Assembly (NCBI GenBank): GCA_016124975.1
Contig: WGMP01000038.1
Location: 1 to 32,674 of the forward strand
Reading direction: 5' to 3'
Length of the DNA stretch: 32,674 nt
DNA from: Phycisphaera sp.
Lineage (GTDB): Bacteria; Planctomycetota; Phycisphaerae; Phycisphaerales; SM1A02
A model generated the notes under the pieces. That model was given only the letters and a program-made list of their open reading frames with translations. It was not told the DNA's origin and ran no database searches. Below, piece after piece: positions 5,691 through 31,484 of the stretch. Both the position numbers and the translations under genes were made by a program. Positions within the stretch are counted from its first letter, which is position 1, and every line of letters begins with the position of its first letter.

Positions 5691-5971
5691 GCCCCGTCGC
5701 CTTTGCGCCGTCACGAAGCGGCGGCGCCGAAGTTGGCCTGCTGCACTTGCCTTCGCGCATCACCCCGCCGAACTGGCGTCTTCGCTCCGCCACGGCCTGG
5801 CGGAAGGTCGGTGCGACCCTTCCAGACCCGCTGCAGGTCGACGAAACGACCGCAACCGGCTGAAGACTGCCCGACTGCACACTGAAGAACCACCAATTCG
5901 GGTGCGATGTGCCCCTGCCATCTCGTCGGAAGGTCCGAGTACCTCGCTCAGGCCACCGCAGGCGAGATACT

Positions 5972-5989
5972 ACCCCAACATATTGGGGT
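5972..5989. promoter_or_regulatory. Palindromic candidate operator upstream of the helicase
   Basis: ACCCCAACATATTGGGGT is a perfect dyad with 7-bp arms (5972-5978 and 5983-5989) around CATA. A further half-site-like ACCCCAACCCAT follows near 6003. It lies in the divergent interval between dcd and a DNA-repair-type helicase, so it could be a repressor site such as an SOS-type operator. The motif does not match a LexA box that I know, so the assignment is a guess. Confidence 0.3.
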
Positions 5990-6281
5990 CGCAAGAAGGA
6001 AGCACCCCAACCCATCGTTCTTTTCGACTTTTTTCAGGTTCTGTCCAGAACCGCGTGTCCTTGCTCCAAGTGCCGCTCCTGGCGCTCCGCGAGACACCTC
6101 TCCCCGCGTGGAGGACACTACCACCGCCGAGCAAGCGACAGCACCGCGGGCGATGGAGGTGGAGAACCTGTTTCGAAGGCGTGGCGACGGGTTCGCCACC
6201 AAACAGGGCCCAAACGCGGCGTTACCATCGTCGCCTTTCCGCCCCGCGCGTCGCGCGGTACCCGATCCCCTGGGACTCTCC

Positions 6282-8567
6282 GTGCACCTCGATGCGACAG
6301 ATGACCGAAGCGACGACTCGTTCGAGGCGCTGTTCGCAGGCCTGACGCCTGCGCAGCGCGAGGCGGCTTCGCACGGCGAGGGTGCCGCGCTGGTCCTCGC
6401 GGGCCCGGGTTCGGGGAAGACCCGCGTCATCACGCGGCGCATCGCGGCACTCGTCGCGCGCGGCGTGCCTCCGTGGAAGATCCTCGCGCTCACCTTCACG
6501 AACAAGGCCGCGGGCGAGATGCGCGAGCGCGTGGCGCAGCTCGTCGCGCGCGAGGACGGCTCGCGCACGGGCCTCGTGGTCTCGACCTTCCATTCGCACT
6601 GCGCCGCGATCCTGCGCCGCTTCGGCGACCGCTGCGGGCTGCAGGCTGGGTTCTCGATCTACGACTCGGGCGACCAGAAGGACGCGATCAAGACGGCGAT
6701 CGAGGAAGCGGGGCTCTCGGGCACGCAGTGGACGCCCGCGAGCGTGCTCGCCGAGATCTCCGACGCGAAGAACCGCCTGCTCGACGCGAAGGCATATCTC
6801 GCGGAGGCGAACGACTTCTGGACGCGCTCGGTGGCGAAGGCCTATGCGGCGTACGAAGCCGTGCTGACGCGCTCGAACGCAGTCGACTTCGATGATCTGC
6901 TTCTGAAGGTGGCGCTCCTCCTCAGGAGCGACGCCGAGGTGCTCGAGGCGCTGCAGGCGCGCCACCAGTGGGTGCTCGTCGACGAGTACCAGGACACGAA
7001 CCATGCGCAGTTCGTGATCGCTGCGGCGCTCGCGGCGAAGTCGCGCAACATCTTCGTCGTCGGCGACCCCGACCAGTCGATCTACGGCTGGCGCGGCGCC
7101 GACATCTCGAACATCCTCGAGTTCGACGAGCACTTCCCGGGCGCGAAGGTGATTCCGCTCGGCGAGAACTTCCGCTCGACCGCGCACATCGTGGCAGCGG
7201 CGGCGGGGCTGATCTCGCACAACCGCCGCCGCAAGCACAAGGAGCTCTCCACCGCGCTCGGCGACGGGCTTCCCGTCCGGATCCTCAAGGTGCACGACGA
7301 GCACGAGGAGGCGGACAAGGTCGTCGAGTTCCTCGAGGAGCGTGCGCGCACGGGCGTCCCGTGGCGCTCGATGGCCGTCCTCTACCGCATGAACGCGCTC
7401 TCGCGCGTGGTCGAGGACGCGCTGCGGCGTCGGATGGTCCCGTCGACCGTCGTGCGCGGCACGGCGTTCTACGACCGCAAGGAAATCAAGGACGCGCTCG
7501 CCTACCTGCGCGTCTGCGCCAATCCGCGCGACGAGGTCTCGCTCAAGCGGATCGTGAATGTGCCCACCCGCGGGATCGGCGATGTCACCGTGCGCAAGGT
7601 CGAGGCCTATGCGGTTGCGAACGGACTGCCGCTCATCGCGGCGTTCGCGCAGGCATCGGGCGCGGGCATCGTCTCGGGCAAGGCCGCGAAGTCGGTCGAC
7701 GCGTTCGTCGCCATGATCCGCGACTTCGCGCGGTCGCTCGACGAGCGCGTGCCTGGCGACCTCTCGAGCTTCGTGAGCGAGGTGCTCGAGACAAGCGGCC
7801 TCGACAGGCTCGACGACCACTCGACCGTCGACGAGCGCGAGCGCGTGGCCAACCTCGAGGAGCTTGTGTCGGCTGCGGCCGACTACCGCCTGCCCGATGA
7901 CGACCCGTCCGAGGCGGATCTTGCGGGCGTGCCCGACGACGAGCGGCCGCTGCCCGCGCTCTCCGCGCAGCCGACCCTCGGCGAGGCGCTGCGGCTCTGG
8001 CTCGAGAGCGTGTCGCTCGTCGCCGACGCAGACGCGGTCGACCCCGAGCAGGGGAGCGTGACGCTGATGACGCTGCACGCGGCGAAGGGCCTCGAGTTCG
8101 ACACGGTCGCCGTGATCGGCGTCGAGAACGGCCTTCTCCCGCACAGCCGCGCGAGCGCCGAGGAGGACGGACTCGAGGAGGAGCGGCGCCTCCTCTTCGT
8201 GGGCATGACGCGCGCCGAGCGCGCGCTGATGGTCTCGAGCGCGGCCGTGCGCACGGTGCGCGGCGTGCGCCAGGCGTCGATCGAGAGCGAGTTCCTGCGC
8301 GAGATCCCAGCGCGGCATGCCGAAAGAACCGACCTCACCGAGCGCGCGGGCGGCGCGCACATCGAATACGACGACCCCGATGCGTTCGATTCCGTCGACG
8401 CGGGCGAGCTCTTCCCGATCGGCTCGATGGTGCGCCACCCGATCTTCGGCGTCGGCAAGGTCGAGTACCTCGCGCGCGGCTTCGGCGGCACGCGCGCCCG
8501 CATCGCGTTCCGCTCGGTCGGGCTCAAGACGCTGATCGTCGAGCACGCGAAGCTGAGCCGCGCGTGA
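6282..8567 (+). CDS. UvrD/PcrA/Rep-type superfamily 1 ATP-dependent DNA helicase
   Basis: A 3'-5' DNA helicase acting in repair and in removal of replication blocks. All SF1A motifs are visible in order: Q-motif LTPAQREAA, Walker A AGPGSGKTR, motif Ia LTFTNKAAGEM, motif II VLVDEYQDTN, motif III VVGDPDQSIYGWRGA, motif IV ENFRST, motif V TLMTLHAAKGLEFD and motif VI RRLLFVGMTRAERAL. The C-terminus (HPIFGVGKVEYLARGFGG) is the Tudor-like tail typical of PcrA/UvrD. I chose the GTG at 6282 (761 aa) because third-base G/C bias begins near there. An in-frame ATG at 6153 (804 aa) is the main alternative, and neither has a clear Shine-Dalgarno. The stop codon TGA lies inside a repeat module. Confidence 0.93.
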   Translation: MHLDATDDRSDDSFEALFAGLTPAQREAASHGEGAALVLAGPGSGKTRVITRRIAALVARGVPPWKILALTFTNKAAGEMRERVAQLVAREDGSRTGLVVSTFHSHCAAILRRFGDRCGLQAGFSIYDSGDQKDAIKTAIEEAGLSGTQWTPASVLAEISDAKNRLLDAKAYLAEANDFWTRSVAKAYAAYEAVLTRSNAVDFDDLLLKVALLLRSDAEVLEALQARHQWVLVDEYQDTNHAQFVIAAALAAKSRNIFVVGDPDQSIYGWRGADISNILEFDEHFPGAKVIPLGENFRSTAHIVAAAAGLISHNRRRKHKELSTALGDGLPVRILKVHDEHEEADKVVEFLEERARTGVPWRSMAVLYRMNALSRVVEDALRRRMVPSTVVRGTAFYDRKEIKDALAYLRVCANPRDEVSLKRIVNVPTRGIGDVTVRKVEAYAVANGLPLIAAFAQASGAGIVSGKAAKSVDAFVAMIRDFARSLDERVPGDLSSFVSEVLETSGLDRLDDHSTVDERERVANLEELVSAAADYRLPDDDPSEADLAGVPDDERPLPALSAQPTLGEALRLWLESVSLVADADAVDPEQGSVTLMTLHAAKGLEFDTVAVIGVENGLLPHSRASAEEDGLEEERRLLFVGMTRAERALMVSSAAVRTVRGVRQASIESEFLREIPARHAERTDLTERAGGAHIEYDDPDAFDSVDAGELFPIGSMVRHPIFGVGKVEYLARGFGGTRARIAFRSVGLKTLIVEHAKLSRA

Positions 8568-8644
8568 TTTGAGCGGTCGCCTCGTAGTTTGAGCGGTCGC
8601 CTCGTAGTTTGAGCGGTCGCCGCTGCGGCGGCTTCCTCTGGCGT
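8563..8644 (+). repeat. Gene-end hairpin module at the helicase stop, first arm triplicated
   Basis: The module starts CGTGATTTGAGCGGTCGC and its TGA (8565-8567) is the helicase stop codon. The 20-bp unit TTTGAGCGGTCGCCTCGTAG is repeated exactly at 8568-8587 and 8588-8607. A third copy at 8608 then runs on into CGCTGCGGCGGCTTCC and TCTGGCGT. The part 8609-8644 is the inverted partner of 9014-9049 (34 of 36 positions complementary). GCCGC/GCGGC inside it can form a short hairpin. Confidence 0.85.
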
Positions 8645-8681
8645 GGATGACACGCGTCGGAGTCGACGGCTGACATCACCC

Positions 8682-8980
8682 GTTCCGCGGACTGAAGTCC
8701 ACGGGCCCCCTTGATTGTCGTGTCGCACGATTCAGATCGCCGGAGTCCCCAGCGACGGGTGCCCGGGGACGAAGTCCCCGGAACGCAAACCGTCGGAGTC
8801 GAAGGCTGACACCACCCGTTCCGCGGACTGAAGTCCACGGGCACCCCTGGTTGTCGTGTCGCACGATTCAGATCGTCGGAGTCCCCAAGCCAGGTGTGCC
8901 CGCATGCTTCAGCATGCGGAACGCAGATCGCCGGAGTCGACGGCTGACATCATCCGTTCCGCGGACTGAAGTCCACGGGC
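8682..8980. repeat. Tandem array of five hairpins with fixed caps and different stems
   Basis: Three copies of one hairpin (type A: 8682-8706, 8818-8842, 8956-8980; spacing 136 and 138 bp) alternate with two others in opposite orientation (B 8759-8785, C 8896-8923). In a common orientation all begin GTGCCCG and end CGGAACG. The stems between differ: TGGACT/AGTCCG in A, GGGAC/GTCCC in B, CATGCT/AGCATG in C. Each remains self-complementary. The spacers are conserved too, for example GTCGTGTCGCACGATTCAGA and GTCGGAGTCGAAGGCTGACA with few changes. No open frame spans the array. Confidence 0.85.
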
Positions 8981-9013
8981 ACCCCGAATCGCCGACTCCG
9001 CCAATCCTGATCT

Positions 9014-9054
9014 ACGCCAAAGGGAGCCGCCGCAGCGGCGACCGCTCAATCACG
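9014..9054 (-). repeat. Gene-end hairpin module at the prolyl oligopeptidase stop
   Basis: Read on the minus strand it is CGTGATTGAGCGGTCGCC, then GCTGCGGCGGCTCCC and TTTGGCGT. The gene's TGA stop (9046-9048) is the TGA inside GATTGAGCGG. It is the inverted partner of 8609-8644. Confidence 0.85.
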
Positions 9055-11172
9055 CCCGCAGACGCCCGTCTGCCACATGATGAACGACCACTGGTCGACC
9101 TCGTCGCGGATCCGCAGCGCGAGCGGCTTGCCCTGGCCGTGTCCTGCGTCGCGGTCGACCCACAGAAGGATCGGGTCCTGCGCGTGGTCGTTCGTGGCCT
9201 TCGCCTGCATGCGCGCCACGAACTTGCGTGCGTGCAGCGGGTGCACGCGCGAGTCGTTCTCGCCTGCGGTCACGAGCAGCGCGGGGTACCTCGTTCCCTC
9301 GCGGATGTTGTGGTAAGGCGAATACGCAAAGAGCGTCTCGAACTGCGTCTTGTCCTCGGCCGAGCCATACTCAGGCACCCAGTAGCGCGCGATGAGGAAG
9401 TCCTGGTAGCGCAGCATGTCGAGGAGTGGAACGCCGACGATCGCAGCTGCGAAGAGGTCGGGACGCTGCGTCGCGGCGACGCCTGTCAGGAGCCCGCCGT
9501 TCGAGCCGCCCTCGATCGCGAGGCGCGCGGGGCTCGTGTACTTGTTCGCGATGAGCCACTCGGCGCAGGCGTAGAAGTCGTCGAAGACATTCTGCTTGTT
9601 CCCCTGCATGCCCGCGCGGTGCCAGGCCTCGCCATACTCGCCGCCGCCGCGGAGGTTGGCGACGACATAGACGCCGCCCCGCTCAAGCCACGGCACAAGC
9701 GTCGGGTTGAACGCGGGCGTGAGCGACACATTGAAGCCGCCATAGCCATAGAGAAGCGTCGGGTTGTCGCCGTTGAACGGCATGTCCTTGCGGCGCACGA
9801 TGAACATCGGCACCTCGGTGCCGTCCTTCGAGGTCGCACGCCGCTGCTCGACCGTGTAGCCCGAGAGGTCGCTCGGGATCTCGGTCCTCGCCCACACCTT
9901 GAGGTCGGCCGCCGCGAGGTCCTTCTTCGCGAGATCGGTCGCGTAGATCGTGCGCGGCGCGTCATAGCTCGTGTAGGTGACGAACGCCTCGGTGCGGTTC
10001 CAGTCGGTCGACACGGCCGCTGTGCCGAGGCCCGGCAGCGGGATCGCGCCGATGCGCGTGCCGTCGTGACGCACGATCTCGAACTGCGTGCAGACATCCT
10101 TCGACCAAGTGAGGACAAGCGCGTCCTTCATGCGCGAGACGCCCTCGAGCACCATGTCTGGTCGCTCAGCCACCACCGTCTTCCACTGTTCGCGCGCAGG
10201 CTTTGCGAGATCGACCGCGACGATCGAGCCCTTCGGCGAGCCGAAGGTGGTCGACATGTAGAGCGTGCCGTCGATCACATCGATCGGCTCGAAGCGTCCG
10301 TCGAGGCCTTCCGCGATCATCGTGCGCTCGATCTCCCCCTTCTCGAGCCACGGCCCCATCGGCGCAACCCAGAGGTCGTTCTTCGCCCAGCCCTTGAAGA
10401 GCGAGCCGATCAGCCACTTGCCATCGGTCGAGGGGCCTGCGCCGGGGATCTCGCTCGGGTTCGTCTGCCTGACGACGATCGGGTTGAGCGAAGCGTCGCG
10501 GCCGAGCACATGCTGCCGCGTCTCGCGCGAATAGGGGTCGTTCACATCGCGCAGGCCCGAGTAGAAGAAGGTCTTGCCGTCGGGCATCCACCCGCTCATG
10601 CTGACCTTGCCCAAGATCTTGTCATCGAGCCACTTGCCCGTCGCGACATCGAGGACATGGAGCTCGCTCATCTCGCTGCCCTTCTGCGAGAGGCCGAAGG
10701 CCATCAGCGTTCCCTGTTCGTTGGGCCGCCACCAGTCGAGGCTCGTGAGGCCCTTCTCGTCGAGCGCGTTCACGTCGAGGAGGACGCGCGGCTCCGCATC
10801 GAGCGTGAGGCGGAACTTCACCACCGCCTGGTTCTGCGTGCCCGAGCGCTCGGAGTAGAAGTAGCCGCCCTCGGTCATGCGCGGCGCGCCGACCGCGCCG
10901 AGCGTCATCCAGGGCTCGAGCGCCTTCGCGAGCTCCTCGCGGCACGCGACGCCTTCGAGGACGCGCCTCGTGTGGTCGTTCTGCGTGGTGGTCCACTCGG
11001 CCACCTCGGAGGACTCCTTCTCGAGCGGCTCGAGCCAGCGGAACTCGTCGACGATCTCGACCCCGTGCAGCGTGTCTGCGACGGGCACCGCCTTCGTCGG
11101 CGGGAACGGTGCGGCTGCAGCGGGCGGGTTGGACATGCAGATGGCGGCGACGAGGGCGGATTCGATGGTCAT
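9046..11172 (-). CDS. Prolyl oligopeptidase (peptidase family S9A)
   Basis: A serine peptidase that cleaves short peptides after proline. The 708-aa length is standard for the family. It has an N-terminal propeller half, preceded by the family's capping segment (VADTLHGVEIVDEFRWLEPLE), and a C-terminal alpha/beta-hydrolase half. The catalytic triad can be placed as S557 in GGSNGGLLTG, D640 in ENDSRVHP and H678 in DAGHGQGK, close to the positions in well-studied members. LLYGYGGFNVSLTPAF is a typical S9A segment. The ATG at 11172 follows CGGAG at about 6-nt spacing. The first 20 residues are mildly hydrophobic, but a signal peptide is not clear, so the location could be cytoplasmic or periplasmic. 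The stop lies inside a repeat module. Confidence 0.95.
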   Translation of the reverse strand: MTIESALVAAICMSNPPAAAAPFPPTKAVPVADTLHGVEIVDEFRWLEPLEKESSEVAEWTTTQNDHTRRVLEGVACREELAKALEPWMTLGAVGAPRMTEGGYFYSERSGTQNQAVVKFRLTLDAEPRVLLDVNALDEKGLTSLDWWRPNEQGTLMAFGLSQKGSEMSELHVLDVATGKWLDDKILGKVSMSGWMPDGKTFFYSGLRDVNDPYSRETRQHVLGRDASLNPIVVRQTNPSEIPGAGPSTDGKWLIGSLFKGWAKNDLWVAPMGPWLEKGEIERTMIAEGLDGRFEPIDVIDGTLYMSTTFGSPKGSIVAVDLAKPAREQWKTVVAERPDMVLEGVSRMKDALVLTWSKDVCTQFEIVRHDGTRIGAIPLPGLGTAAVSTDWNRTEAFVTYTSYDAPRTIYATDLAKKDLAAADLKVWARTEIPSDLSGYTVEQRRATSKDGTEVPMFIVRRKDMPFNGDNPTLLYGYGGFNVSLTPAFNPTLVPWLERGGVYVVANLRGGGEYGEAWHRAGMQGNKQNVFDDFYACAEWLIANKYTSPARLAIEGGSNGGLLTGVAATQRPDLFAAAIVGVPLLDMLRYQDFLIARYWVPEYGSAEDKTQFETLFAYSPYHNIREGTRYPALLVTAGENDSRVHPLHARKFVARMQAKATNDHAQDPILLWVDRDAGHGQGKPLALRIRDEVDQWSFIMWQTGVCGRD

Positions 11173-12147: not shown

Positions 12148-13155
12148 TCAGGCGACCGAGCGCACCTTCATGCCCGCGAAGGCAGGGGTGCAGCACTCGG
12201 TGCGCTCGTCGCAGCACTTCACGCCGTGCGCGAACTCATCGCCCGAGAGGTTCGGGTTCTGGTTCAAGGTCGAGGTCGGAGTCGCGCCGCTCGTTCCAAG
12301 CGGCGCGGTGCCGCAGGCCGCGTTCCAGAAGCCGTTGCCCTGGAATGGGCCGTGCAGCGAGGGATTCGCAGGCGACGAGTTGGTGAAGGACTGATTGGCG
12401 TACGACGAATTCGCAACCGCGGGATTCGACGCGGTGTTGGCATGCGTGAAGCCACGGGTGGCCTGCGTCGGCGTGCACGAGTTCGCGTTGGTGCGGCTTG
12501 TGCCGGTGTTCACGCTGCCCGTGCCCGGCGCGCAGTTGGTCTGCGGGTTCGTGTTGGTGGCGCAGGCGGCGCGGAGGCCGGCCTCGAAGCCAGCGTGGAA
12601 CGCGTCGCGCCAGTTCGGCTCAAACGCGTTCGAGGTGCTGTTGAAGCCGTTGTTCCAGCCGTTGTTCCAGTTGGTGTTCGGCGTGTTGTTCCAGCCGTTG
12701 TTCCAGTTGGTGTTCGGCGTGTTGTTCCAGCCGTTGTTCCAGTTGGTGTTCGGCGTGTTGTTCCAGCCGTTGTTCCAGCTGGTGTTCGGCGTGTTGTTCC
12801 AGCCGTTGTTCCAGCTGGTGTTCGGCGTGTTGTTCCAGCCGTTGTTCCAGCCGCCGAAGTTCCACGGGGTCGCGTTCCACGGCGTCGCGTTGCCGAAGCC
12901 GTTGTTCGCCCACGGGAAGTTGGCGCCGAAGCGCGTGGTGTTCGGGCCGAACGGGCCGTTGAAGCCGTTGAACCCGTTGAATCCGTTGTACCCACCGAAG
13001 CCGTTCCAGCCGTTGAAGCCGTTCGTCCCAGCGAAGCCGTTCGTGCAGGCGTTCTGCCAGGTCGCCGTTCCGCCGCAGCAGTCGCTCGAGTCGAAGTCAG
13101 GGCAGTTGGTGCAGGTGTGCGTGGGCGACCAGCCGTTCGGCGTGGTGTTGTACAT
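12148..13155 (-). CDS. Asn/Gly/Trp/Phe-rich tandem-repeat protein of unknown function
   Basis: I do not recognise this 335-aa protein. It begins with a Cys-rich head (MYNTTPNGWSPTHTCTNC, then DCCGG and ACTNG). Next come NGFNGFNG-type repeats, then five tandem 12-residue units of the form NNGWNNTPNTNW, then a less repetitive Asn/Thr-rich part, and a tail with more cysteines (CCDERTECC). There is no signal peptide or membrane segment. Asn-rich composition is striking in such GC-rich DNA and is carried almost entirely by AAC codons, which suggests selection for the protein rather than chance. I chose the ATG at 13155 because GGAG precedes it by about 8 nt; the frame remains open upstream to 13296 with poor composition. 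It has its own terminator. Possible roles, all inferred: structural or matrix protein, metal-binding scaffold or prion-like protein. Confidence 0.75.
   Translation of the reverse strand: MYNTTPNGWSPTHTCTNCPDFDSSDCCGGTATWQNACTNGFAGTNGFNGWNGFGGYNGFNGFNGFNGPFGPNTTRFGANFPWANNGFGNATPWNATPWNFGGWNNGWNNTPNTSWNNGWNNTPNTSWNNGWNNTPNTNWNNGWNNTPNTNWNNGWNNTPNTNWNNGWNNGFNSTSNAFEPNWRDAFHAGFEAGLRAACATNTNPQTNCAPGTGSVNTGTSRTNANSCTPTQATRGFTHANTASNPAVANSSYANQSFTNSSPANPSLHGPFQGNGFWNAACGTAPLGTSGATPTSTLNQNPNLSGDEFAHGVKCCDERTECCTPAFAGMKVRSVA
12647..12850 (-). repeat. 36-bp in-frame tandem repeat, five full copies
   Basis: Full units lie at 12659-12694, 12695-12730, 12731-12766, 12767-12802 and 12803-12838, each starting CCGTTGTTCCAG on the plus strand. 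Half units flank them at 12647-12658 and 12839-12850. Copies are nearly identical; the main variant position is TTGGTG versus CTGGTG (Asn to Ser). High identity indicates recent expansion or homogenisation, so copy number may vary between strains. Confidence 0.9.
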
Positions 13156-29429: not shown

Positions 29430-31484
29430 ATGCAGCGGGAAGATGGCGCAACATTCATTGGGGCTCGGTCCGGTGCCACTGATGGGCGCCTCTCCGGGAT
29501 TCCCTCCCGAATCGCTCGGTTCACGGTCGAACGCGCTATCGGGTCCGGCTCGTTCGGCGATGTCCATCTCGCGGTCGAGGACGGACCGCTCGCGCGGCGG
29601 GTCGCGCTGAAGGTCGTGCGCCCGAACGCGCGGGGTGCCGCGCTCGATGCGGCGCTGCGCGAGGCGCGGATGCTCGCGCGTCTTGACCACCCGTCGATCG
29701 CGCGTGTGATTGATGCTGGCGCGACGGGCGACGGAAGGGCCTTCATTGCGCTTGAGTACATCGATGGGAGGACTTTCTCGGCATGGTGCTCGGATTCGGA
29801 GCCAAGCGTGGCGTCGCGGCTCGAGGTTCTCGAGGATGTGGCCGCTGCGATCGCCTACGCCCACGACCGTGGCACGATCCATCGCGACCTCAAGCCTGCG
29901 AACATCATGGTGCGCGAGGGCGGTGGAGCCCGCGCATCGGGGGTCGTGCTCGACTTCGGGGTCGCCGCACTCGTCGATGATTCGGACGATCGCGACGCAG
30001 CGAGCACGCTTGAGGCGACGATCTCCGCGCGTCGCGCGGGCACGCTCGAGACGATGGCGCCCGAGCAGTTCATCCTCGGCGCAAGCCCGAGCGTGCGTGC
30101 GGACCTCTACTCGCTCGGCGTCCTGCTTCATTGGAGCGTGGCTGGCCGCCCGCCCTTCGCACGGACCTCCCCGAGCGACATTCTCGGATTCGCGCAGCGC
30201 GTCCAAGGTGAAGCGCTGAGGGCGATCCGCAGCCAGGATCTCGCGGCGGGGGTCGAGCTCCCCTCGGCGCAGTTGCGGGACCTCAACGCCGTTCTTTCGC
30301 GCGCGCTCGCAAAGGATCCTCAGCAGCGCTACGCCAGTGCGACGGAGTTTGCCCAGGAACTCGCCCGGCTCCGGCGGCGGGAGCCGACGGACGCGACAGC
30401 GCCCGGGCTCCTCGCGCGGTCGCGCCGTTTCGTGGCGCGCAACAAGGTGCCCGTGATGTCCGCGTCGGTCGTGATCGGAACGCTGTTCGCATCGACCGCA
30501 GTCGTCTCTGGTTTCGCGGCCAGCGAGCGCGAGGCCAGAATATCCGCAACCACTGAGCTTGAGCGCGCCACGCTTCTGGCCGAGGCATTGCGCGGCAACC
30601 TGCGGGCGTTGACAGGGGATCTTGTTGCGCTCGGCAACATGCCTCAGCTCGTGGGGTACTGGCCAAACATCCTCGCGGCGTATGAGACAGTCGAGGGCCG
30701 CGACAGCATCGTGCTCGCACAACAGCGGACGTTCTACGCGGAGCAGTTGACGAGGTCGGGACGGGCACCCGAAGCGATCGAGCAGCTGCAGGAAGCTCTT
30801 CGGGCGGCGAATCTTCATGACCATGCAGAGATCGCCGCTGCGATCTGCCTCCGTCTTGCTTTCGCGCTTGAGGAGACGGGGAGGGTGGATGAGGCGCTGG
30901 CGGTGATGGATGGCGCGATCGCGAACGATCTCCCCAAGCTCGATCCATTGGTCGTCACAAACCACCCGTGGTTCTTCCACGGCCTCCGCGGGCGGCTTCT
31001 CGCCACGCTTGGCCGGCGAGACGAGGGCATCGCCGCCATCCGCGAGGCGATCATCCTTCAGGATCGCGCGATCGGCGGCAAGGGCTCGCTGAACGACTCG
31101 CAGCTTCGCGGAGTGCTGGTCTCCGAGCTGATCAGGGCCGACCGAATCGATGAAGCGCTCGTCGAGGGTGATGCGCTTGTCGCCGACATCGAGCGGAACA
31201 AGACCGCCGAGCGCTCGGCGGGCATCCGTGCGTGGCGCGAGCGGACGCGATCCGACTTACTTCGCCTTCGCCTCGAACGCGCCTCCGATGCCGATGCACC
31301 TGAGTTGGCTGCGGAACTCCGCAGCGTCGCCATCGAGTGGCGTCGCCTGACGGGCCCGAGCGCCGACAAGTTCACCGCAATCAACCATACGCTTGGAAAG
31401 CGGGGGTATCCCCCGATCACCGAGGAAGAGGTGCTCGCGTTCATCGAGAACCTGAAGACCGAGCAGGGGATGGCTGCGCCGTAA
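29430..31484 (+). CDS. Membrane-anchored Ser/Thr protein kinase with TPR-like C-terminus
   Basis: A 684-aa eukaryotic-like protein kinase. The N-terminal kinase domain (about residues 31-315) has the Gly loop AIGSGSFGDVHLA, ATP-binding K61 (VALKVV), catalytic D153 (HRDLKPANIM), metal-binding D175 (LDFGVAAL), the TMAPEQF segment and DLYSLGVLLHWSVAG, so it should be active. One transmembrane helix follows at about residues 340-364 (VPVMSASVVIGTLFASTAVV). The C-terminal half is helical and TPR-like (RSGRAPEAIEQLQEALRAAN, GRVDEALAVMDGAIAND, GRRDEGIAAIREAI, RIDEALVEGDALV) and would lie outside the cytoplasm as a sensing or protein-binding part. The ATG at 29430 has GGAG 8 nt upstream. The kinase is 2 kb from an ECF-like sigma factor, a pairing known in planctomycetes. 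Confidence 0.93.
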   Translation: MQREDGATFIGARSGATDGRLSGIPSRIARFTVERAIGSGSFGDVHLAVEDGPLARRVALKVVRPNARGAALDAALREARMLARLDHPSIARVIDAGATGDGRAFIALEYIDGRTFSAWCSDSEPSVASRLEVLEDVAAAIAYAHDRGTIHRDLKPANIMVREGGGARASGVVLDFGVAALVDDSDDRDAASTLEATISARRAGTLETMAPEQFILGASPSVRADLYSLGVLLHWSVAGRPPFARTSPSDILGFAQRVQGEALRAIRSQDLAAGVELPSAQLRDLNAVLSRALAKDPQQRYASATEFAQELARLRRREPTDATAPGLLARSRRFVARNKVPVMSASVVIGTLFASTAVVSGFAASEREARISATTELERATLLAEALRGNLRALTGDLVALGNMPQLVGYWPNILAAYETVEGRDSIVLAQQRTFYAEQLTRSGRAPEAIEQLQEALRAANLHDHAEIAAAICLRLAFALEETGRVDEALAVMDGAIANDLPKLDPLVVTNHPWFFHGLRGRLLATLGRRDEGIAAIREAIILQDRAIGGKGSLNDSQLRGVLVSELIRADRIDEALVEGDALVADIERNKTAERSAGIRAWRERTRSDLLRLRLERASDADAPELAAELRSVAIEWRRLTGPSADKFTAINHTLGKRGYPPITEEEVLAFIENLKTEQGMAAP

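Follow-up and report, generated by a model that had tools for sequence, protein, structure and literature searches.

Paired GTGC-footed hairpins with interchangeable stems in Phycisphaera sp., a probable REP/BIME-type repeat family associated with a RAYT gene

The hairpin array at the uvrD junction

The window, that is, the whole stretch of 32,674 nucleotides analysed here (Phycisphaera sp., contig WGMP01000038.1), contains an intergenic region of about 478-485 bp between a UvrD-type helicase gene and a prolyl oligopeptidase gene, and this region holds an array of short hairpins (Table 1). The initial annotation had described five hairpins of three stem types, and these were found at 8681-8982: T (TGGACTTCAGTCCG) three times, and G (GGGACGAAGTCCC) and M (CATGCTTCAGCATG) once each, with hairpin lengths of 27-28 nt. 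The caps, GTGCCCG and CGGAACG, had been described as fixed; both are exact in four of the five hairpins, whereas the first reads GGGCCCG instead of GTGCCCG. The orientation alternates along the array, and direct repeats are spaced by 136 and 138 bp, in agreement with the period of about 137 bp reported before. A further exact-cap match in the window, at 30447-30482, forms no hairpin and is consistent with the chance level.

Table 1. Positions of the flanking genes, hairpins, spacers and linkers in the window.
Feature	Position	Strand	Remark
UvrD-type helicase gene	5907..8567	+	flanking context; gene end abuts array
Second-family hairpin GCGGTCGCCGCTGCGGCGGCTTCC	8613..8636	+	array edge
Spacer of incomplete first unit, 31 nt	8650..8680	+	window array
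Right-slot hairpin, T stem	8681..8708	-	degenerate 5' cap, GGGCCCG vs GTGCCCG; left partner missing
Linker separating units	8709..8758	+	window array
Left-slot hairpin, G stem (GGGACGAAGTCCC)	8759..8785	+	both caps exact
Conserved spacer, 31 nt	8786..8816	+	window array
Right-slot hairpin, T stem	8817..8844	-	both caps exact
Linker separating units, 51 nt	8845..8895	+	window array
Left-slot hairpin, M stem (CATGCTTCAGCATG)	8896..8923	+	both caps exact
Conserved spacer, 31 nt	8924..8954	+	window array
Right-slot hairpin, T stem	8955..8982	-	both caps exact
Second-family hairpin, inverted copy	9022..9045	-	one mismatch; opposite array edge
Prolyl oligopeptidase gene	9046..11172	-	flanking context; convergent with UvrD-type helicase gene

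The second family, GCGGTCGCCGCTGCGGCGGCTTCC, occurs at 80 places in the genome when up to 2 mismatches are allowed, against 0 for the reversed control, some copies lying within other arrays and some being solitary. Directly 3' of the uvrD stop codon, at 8568-8621, 2.7 copies of the 20-bp sequence TTTGAGCGGTCGCCTCGTAG form a perfect tandem repeat, which is a stutter of the edge of this second family. Another tandem repeat of the window, with a period of 36 bp (12645-12851; 5.6 copies, 99% match), is rich in GTTGTTCCAG.

A dispersed family of capped hairpins and its paired units

The two exact caps with an interior of 8-24 nt were found at 202 places in the genome (106 + 96), compared with 4 for the reversed control pattern, and the element agrees with the broad sense of a REP, a short, high-copy palindrome able to form a stem-loop. 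Nearly two fifths of the contig ends of the genome (45/118) have a capped hairpin no more than 300 bases away, which indicates that the arrays break the assembly and that 202 is probably an underestimate.

The stems were analysed in 200 exact-cap matches from 71 sources (70 array stretches and the window), to which one 9-nt interior was added for scoring (n = 201; G-T pairs allowed). All five outer positions were paired in 190 interiors, four in 8, three in 2 and none in 1. The earlier claim that the structure is conserved and the stem sequence variable therefore stands, and copies with non-complementary arms at background frequency, the refuting result named in the initial annotation, were not seen. 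The five main types, M (77), T (51), G (19), H (TGGACGAAGTCCA; 16) and P (CAGGTTTCAACCTG; 15), make up 178 of the 200 matches, and the 22 rarer ones include the non-hairpin at 30447 of the window. Hairpins with arms from two types are rare (GGGACGAAGTCCA twice, TGGACGAAGTCCC once, and one CATGC/GTCTG chimera), and their existence means that arms can change separately. Two causes had been suggested in the initial annotation for the retained structure. A constraint on the folded strand is its natural cause. Hairpin-templated copying is not supported: chimeric-arm hairpins exist, and the stems often contain G-T pairs, which compensatory change of the ordinary kind would leave behind.

Each hairpin has a GTGC foot immediately before a stem beginning CCG/CGG; the upper part of the stem is interchangeable and closes in a short loop. 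The foot is conserved at 98-100% at each letter in the 194 of 215 spacer-anchored hairpins with a placeable 5' cap, a placing that itself requires most of those letters. Stem types T, G, M, P and K, the five that were folded as DNA (H left out), all took one predicted shape: two pairs close the hairpin, bases of the caps form an asymmetric internal loop, and a stem of eight pairs ends in a loop of three or four. In this model, the caps may build a small bulge beneath the interchangeable stem, which by analogy would resemble the bulge of the E. coli REP. According to the accessible text of PMC8266576, the E. coli bulge is needed, an upper stem swapped to its complement is still bound and cleaved, and a stem mismatch lowers activity in two other systems.

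The hairpins are arranged in units: a conserved 31-nt spacer separates a left hairpin from a right one in inverted orientation, and the GTGC feet point outward. Common inter-unit linkers measure 49-51, 55, 74-76 and 94-95 nt, and longer gaps often contain a hairpin with altered caps. Inverted pairs with a conserved spacer in alternating orientation are the arrangement that defines BIMEs and REPINs. Anchoring on the spacer alone, in which neither caps nor pairing were required, gave 113 places within the stretches fetched for an exact-cap hairpin. Both sides could be typed at 72 of these places, and the other 41, with an untyped side, were dropped. The left slot was occupied by M (22), H (14), Q (CAGACTTCAGTCTG; 12), P (12), G (11) and q (CAGACGAAGTCTG; 1), and the right slot by T (28), M (27), K (TTGGAC[G/A]AAGTCCAA; 15) and C (CGGACTTCAGTCCG; 2). 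Between the five main left and the three common right types, 11 of 15 combinations are present; the empty cells are M/M, H/T, P/T and Q/K, for which 8.25, about 5.4, about 4.7 and 2.5 pairs were expected by hand calculation.

Identical left/right pairs were absent among the 72 places, compared with about 8.3 expected (0 of 100,000 permutations as low), and the M/M cell supplies nearly all of this expectation. When the types were replaced by a folding criterion (102 of the 113 places, 11 dropped), there were again no identical pairs against 7.2 expected (1 of 5000 shuffles as low), and 2 pairs at least 90% alike against 9.2 expected (4 of 5000). Counting one pair per array (63 arrays), 4.6 identical pairs were expected, and the chance of zero was about 0.002. 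A general structural cause of heterotypy was rejected, as the mean left/right similarity (0.694) was not lower than in the shuffled pairs (0.683); the shortage is therefore confined to identical and near-identical pairs. H/K pairs, alike at about 24-25 of 27 positions by eye, are present (6/72). The non-identical cells H/T, P/T and Q/K are also empty, which means that lines of descent can empty cells, and loss in assembly is a possible reason for the missing identical pairs. The less expected feature of the family is the lack of identical pairs among stems that otherwise combine between left and right, with some non-identical combinations missing too.

Related hairpins and RAYT genes

In eight genomes of the same genus, 64 cap matches were detected, of which 41 were fully paired and 18 had at most 3 pairs, compared with 14 matches of the reversed pattern; at least one of the 18 poorly paired matches (G012, TCAGGCGAAGCCTG) pairs in a shifted register. 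Other stems stand under the same caps, including CACCCTTCAGGGTG (G004), CAGACTTCAGTCTG (G006), CAGATGCAATCTG and CAGGCGAAGCCTG (G008), and GGGATGCAATCCC (G003, G010). Across nine genomes, 48 distinct interiors of 13-14 nt were collected, non-hairpins included, and 25 of them were fully paired. After the 3' arms of these interiors had been re-dealt 20,000 times, 6.25 of them were fully paired on average and never more than 15, a result that is no true probability, the 48 interiors sharing descent. This check of arm complementarity across related genomes, proposed in the initial annotation, came out in favour of covariation and does show that the arms of the stems change together.

The junction of uvrD and the oligopeptidase gene is kept in 1 of 15 same-genus genomes (G006) within the stretches read. 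Its gap there is 164 bp, against about 478-485 bp in the window, and has a GCTGCGGCGGC hairpin and no GTGCCCG hairpins. Judged from this one site in one species, a later arrival of the array at the junction would fit. The hairpin at the G006 junction, where the array is absent, is similar to the second family GCGGTCGCCGCTGCGGCGGCTTCC. Hairpins were also recognized by eye at the uvrD 3' end in G014 (L259) and G012 (L261); their caps are related (GGTGCCCG...CGGAAC type) and their stems are different again.

Matches to PF01797 or to RAYT models were found on three contigs of the genome, C15, C14 and C30. With NF047646, the NCBIfam equivalog for the REP-associated tyrosine transposase (cut-off 80), the C15 and C14 proteins scored 89.9 and 84 bits, and the C30 protein scored 61.1 bits, below the cut-off. 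The C15 RAYT has 179 aa, an intact frame with no stops, and the motif YIHLNP. Upstream of its gene lie family hairpins of the M, P and M types, the nearest about 130 bp from the start, and downstream none was seen in the stretch read. The arrangement of a RAYT gene flanked by its REPs (REPtron) is thus present at C15 on the upstream side only. On either side of the C14 RAYT gene, the same GGGTGC was seen by eye to be followed by another stem, of the CACCACT...AGTGGTG type. Long GGTGCCAAGCACGTGCC palindromes lie on both sides of the C30 RAYT-like gene (70189-70575; L151 / L031), and a gene in G003 (L138) is flanked by a similar pattern.

Within the genus, RAYTs at 43-44% identity in G002, G004 and G006 adjoin GTGG-footed hairpins, and the G002 and G004 loci have, by eye, two different stems after the common head GTGTGGCA. 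A close RAYT was not found in G003 (best 31% identity) or G008 (none), two assemblies of about 82-83% completeness that both contain the hairpins.

The survey of RAYT loci was extended to the best 80 of at least 423 named relatives found, mostly Planctomycetota. In these best 80, the density of hairpins with stems of at least 8 was 0.85/kb near the RAYT gene versus 0.15/kb far from it. With stems of at least 7, GTGC was the commonest foot in the same sample (49 tags at 125 near hairpins versus 9 at 140 far ones), followed near the gene by GTGG with 8, and a single locus contributed 8 of the 49 GTGC tags. GTGC hairpins occurred at 20 of the 80 best loci and at 19 of the 66 that had both flanks; by the strict perfect-stem test, 44 of these 66 had no GTGC, GTGG or GTAG hairpin. 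In the RAYT tree, with bootstrap not settled, the GTGC label stands on 22 rows spread across Planctomycetota. The label changes twice, compared with a shuffled mean of 3.9 (4 of 500 as low), a count made between the 22 GTGC rows and only 4 GTGG rows, with 56 rows in no group. The tree was not used as proof of a single GTGC origin.

Interpretation as probable RAYT-associated repeats

A RAYT gene beside the same hairpins, the high dispersed copy number and the convergent-gene setting together point to a REP-type repeat family. The array is best explained, with a probability of roughly 0.8, as a cluster of non-autonomous REP/BIME-type repeats that owe their spread to a RAYT (TnpA_REP) whose gene lies elsewhere in the genome, or that derive from substrates of this enzyme. 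Several observations weigh against this interpretation: the C15 hairpins are one-sided in the stretch read, G003 and G008 have the hairpins with no close RAYT found at their completeness, the strict test left the 44 loci of the best-80 sample blank, the published GT[A/G]G head is lacking, and empty-site support comes from one site in 1 of 15 relatives.

In the proposed mechanism, the RAYT would bind, cleave and mobilize the folded strand, which it would recognise by the GTGC foot and the lower stem; of the upper stem, only pairing would be required. A nuclease that needs a folded hairpin with a fixed foot, and not one stem sequence, is expected to leave covarying stems, as shown for other RAYTs and presumed for this one. 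Stems would then drift through compensatory change, often by G-T steps, and copies would swap hairpins at the caps that they share. Tandem duplication and dispersal would raise the number of units, each made of two unlike hairpins and the 31-nt spacer. If identical dimers are indeed avoided, they might be lost as long perfect inverted repeats, the cause proposed in the available part of PMC3733652, or might be poor substrates.

The hairpins might instead act mainly as RNA, stabilising mRNA 3' ends or terminating transcription between convergent genes, the stems being kept by RNA-folding selection and the RAYT being incidental. The arrays are extragenic and mostly downstream of genes: 21 classified internal arrays comprised 16 convergent, 5 same-direction and 0 divergent cases by rough GC3-based calls, a count that leaves out 4 ambiguous arrays, contig-end arrays and L079. 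This setting, the common G-T pairs of the stems and the view in PMC3733652, as far as its accessible text goes, that REPs elsewhere are transcribed would suit such a role, which is nevertheless unlikely. The region 8500-9100 has no intrinsic terminator site (stem plus T run), and a promoter scan of it found none. Four Rfam matches were all well below the gathering score, and an RNA role leaves both the RAYT adjacency and the GTGC-footed hairpins at other RAYTs unexplained.

Alternatively, the repeats could be fossils spread by homologous recombination and replication slippage, with a RAYT that is now inactive and covariation that comes from a few old copied types. The dominance of five types, the tandem arrays and the hairpins of G003 and G008 agree with this, but several species have differing paired stems under the same caps, and an intact RAYT frame adjoins an array, and we regard such an origin as quite improbable. 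Integron attC sites, with core sites RYYYAAC/GTTRRRY and an IntI gene, resemble the hairpins only in outline, in that they are recombination sites in a folded single strand whose ends are constant and whose paired middle varies, and are a most improbable identity, because CGGAAC by eye does not fit RYYYAAC, the units of about 137 bp have no cassette genes and the associated enzyme is a RAYT.

As REP/BIME-type repeats, the hairpins share with the gammaproteobacterial REP/BIME and TnpA_REP/RAYT systems the footed short palindromes, high copy number, alternating orientation, adjoining RAYT, and a stem whose sequence is largely free and whose structure is important, as far as these are described in the accessible parts of PMC2817692 and PMC8266576. 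They differ in the foot, which is GT[A/G]G there and GTGC here, in the planctomycete host, and in having more stem types per single set of caps, spacer and arrays than those parts describe. The available text of PMC3733652 reports REP sub-families with alternative complementary stem residues, and a preference for heterodimers in many families that is stated to lack an obvious explanation. Complementary stem changes, outward-tag dimers (HH type), a conserved spacer and heterodimers are common to its GTAG and CGTC super-families and to the present repeats, but the tag GTGC fits neither, and no identical pair was seen among the combinations that M, T, K and other stems form across the two slots here. 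Class 3 TnpA_Y1 of Planctomycetes, Acidobacteria and Proteobacteria (PMC6006769, in part) likewise involves planctomycete RAYT-like genes and hairpins without a GT[A/G]G foot, with a CnGA foot and the Y-motif Y----Q there versus GTGC and YIHLNP here; no word in the available text begins with 'gtgc'. As the foot is GTGC and not the GT[A/G]G of canonical RAYT substrates, the repeats are not assigned to the GTAG REPs and are considered a GTGC-foot variant of REP/BIME elements in the broad sense. In the open-licence literature, no description was found of a GTGC-footed REP class or of planctomycete REPs or RAYTs with a GTGC tag.

Knowledge of REP elements comes mainly from proteobacteria, where the foot is GT[A/G]G. 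Within one genus here, related RAYTs differ between GTGC and GTGG feet. The repeats offer a natural substrate series with which to find out what part of a hairpin is read by a RAYT. We tentatively propose, as a possibility rather than a probability, that Planctomycetota widely carry a REP super-family with a GTGC foot and with RAYTs of its own, that the enzyme reads only the foot and the lower stem, the upper stems being free modules, and that a working unit needs two unlike modules, identical pairs being removed or immobile. With 11 of the 15 combinations of its five main left types and three common right types filled and no identical pair, this one genome makes the heterodimer question testable: long perfect inverted repeats may be unstable, the enzyme may require two ends that differ, or the pattern may reflect descent and nothing more. 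If the reading of unlike modules is true, this genome would be a natural combinatorial experiment on the frequent heterodimers of REPs.
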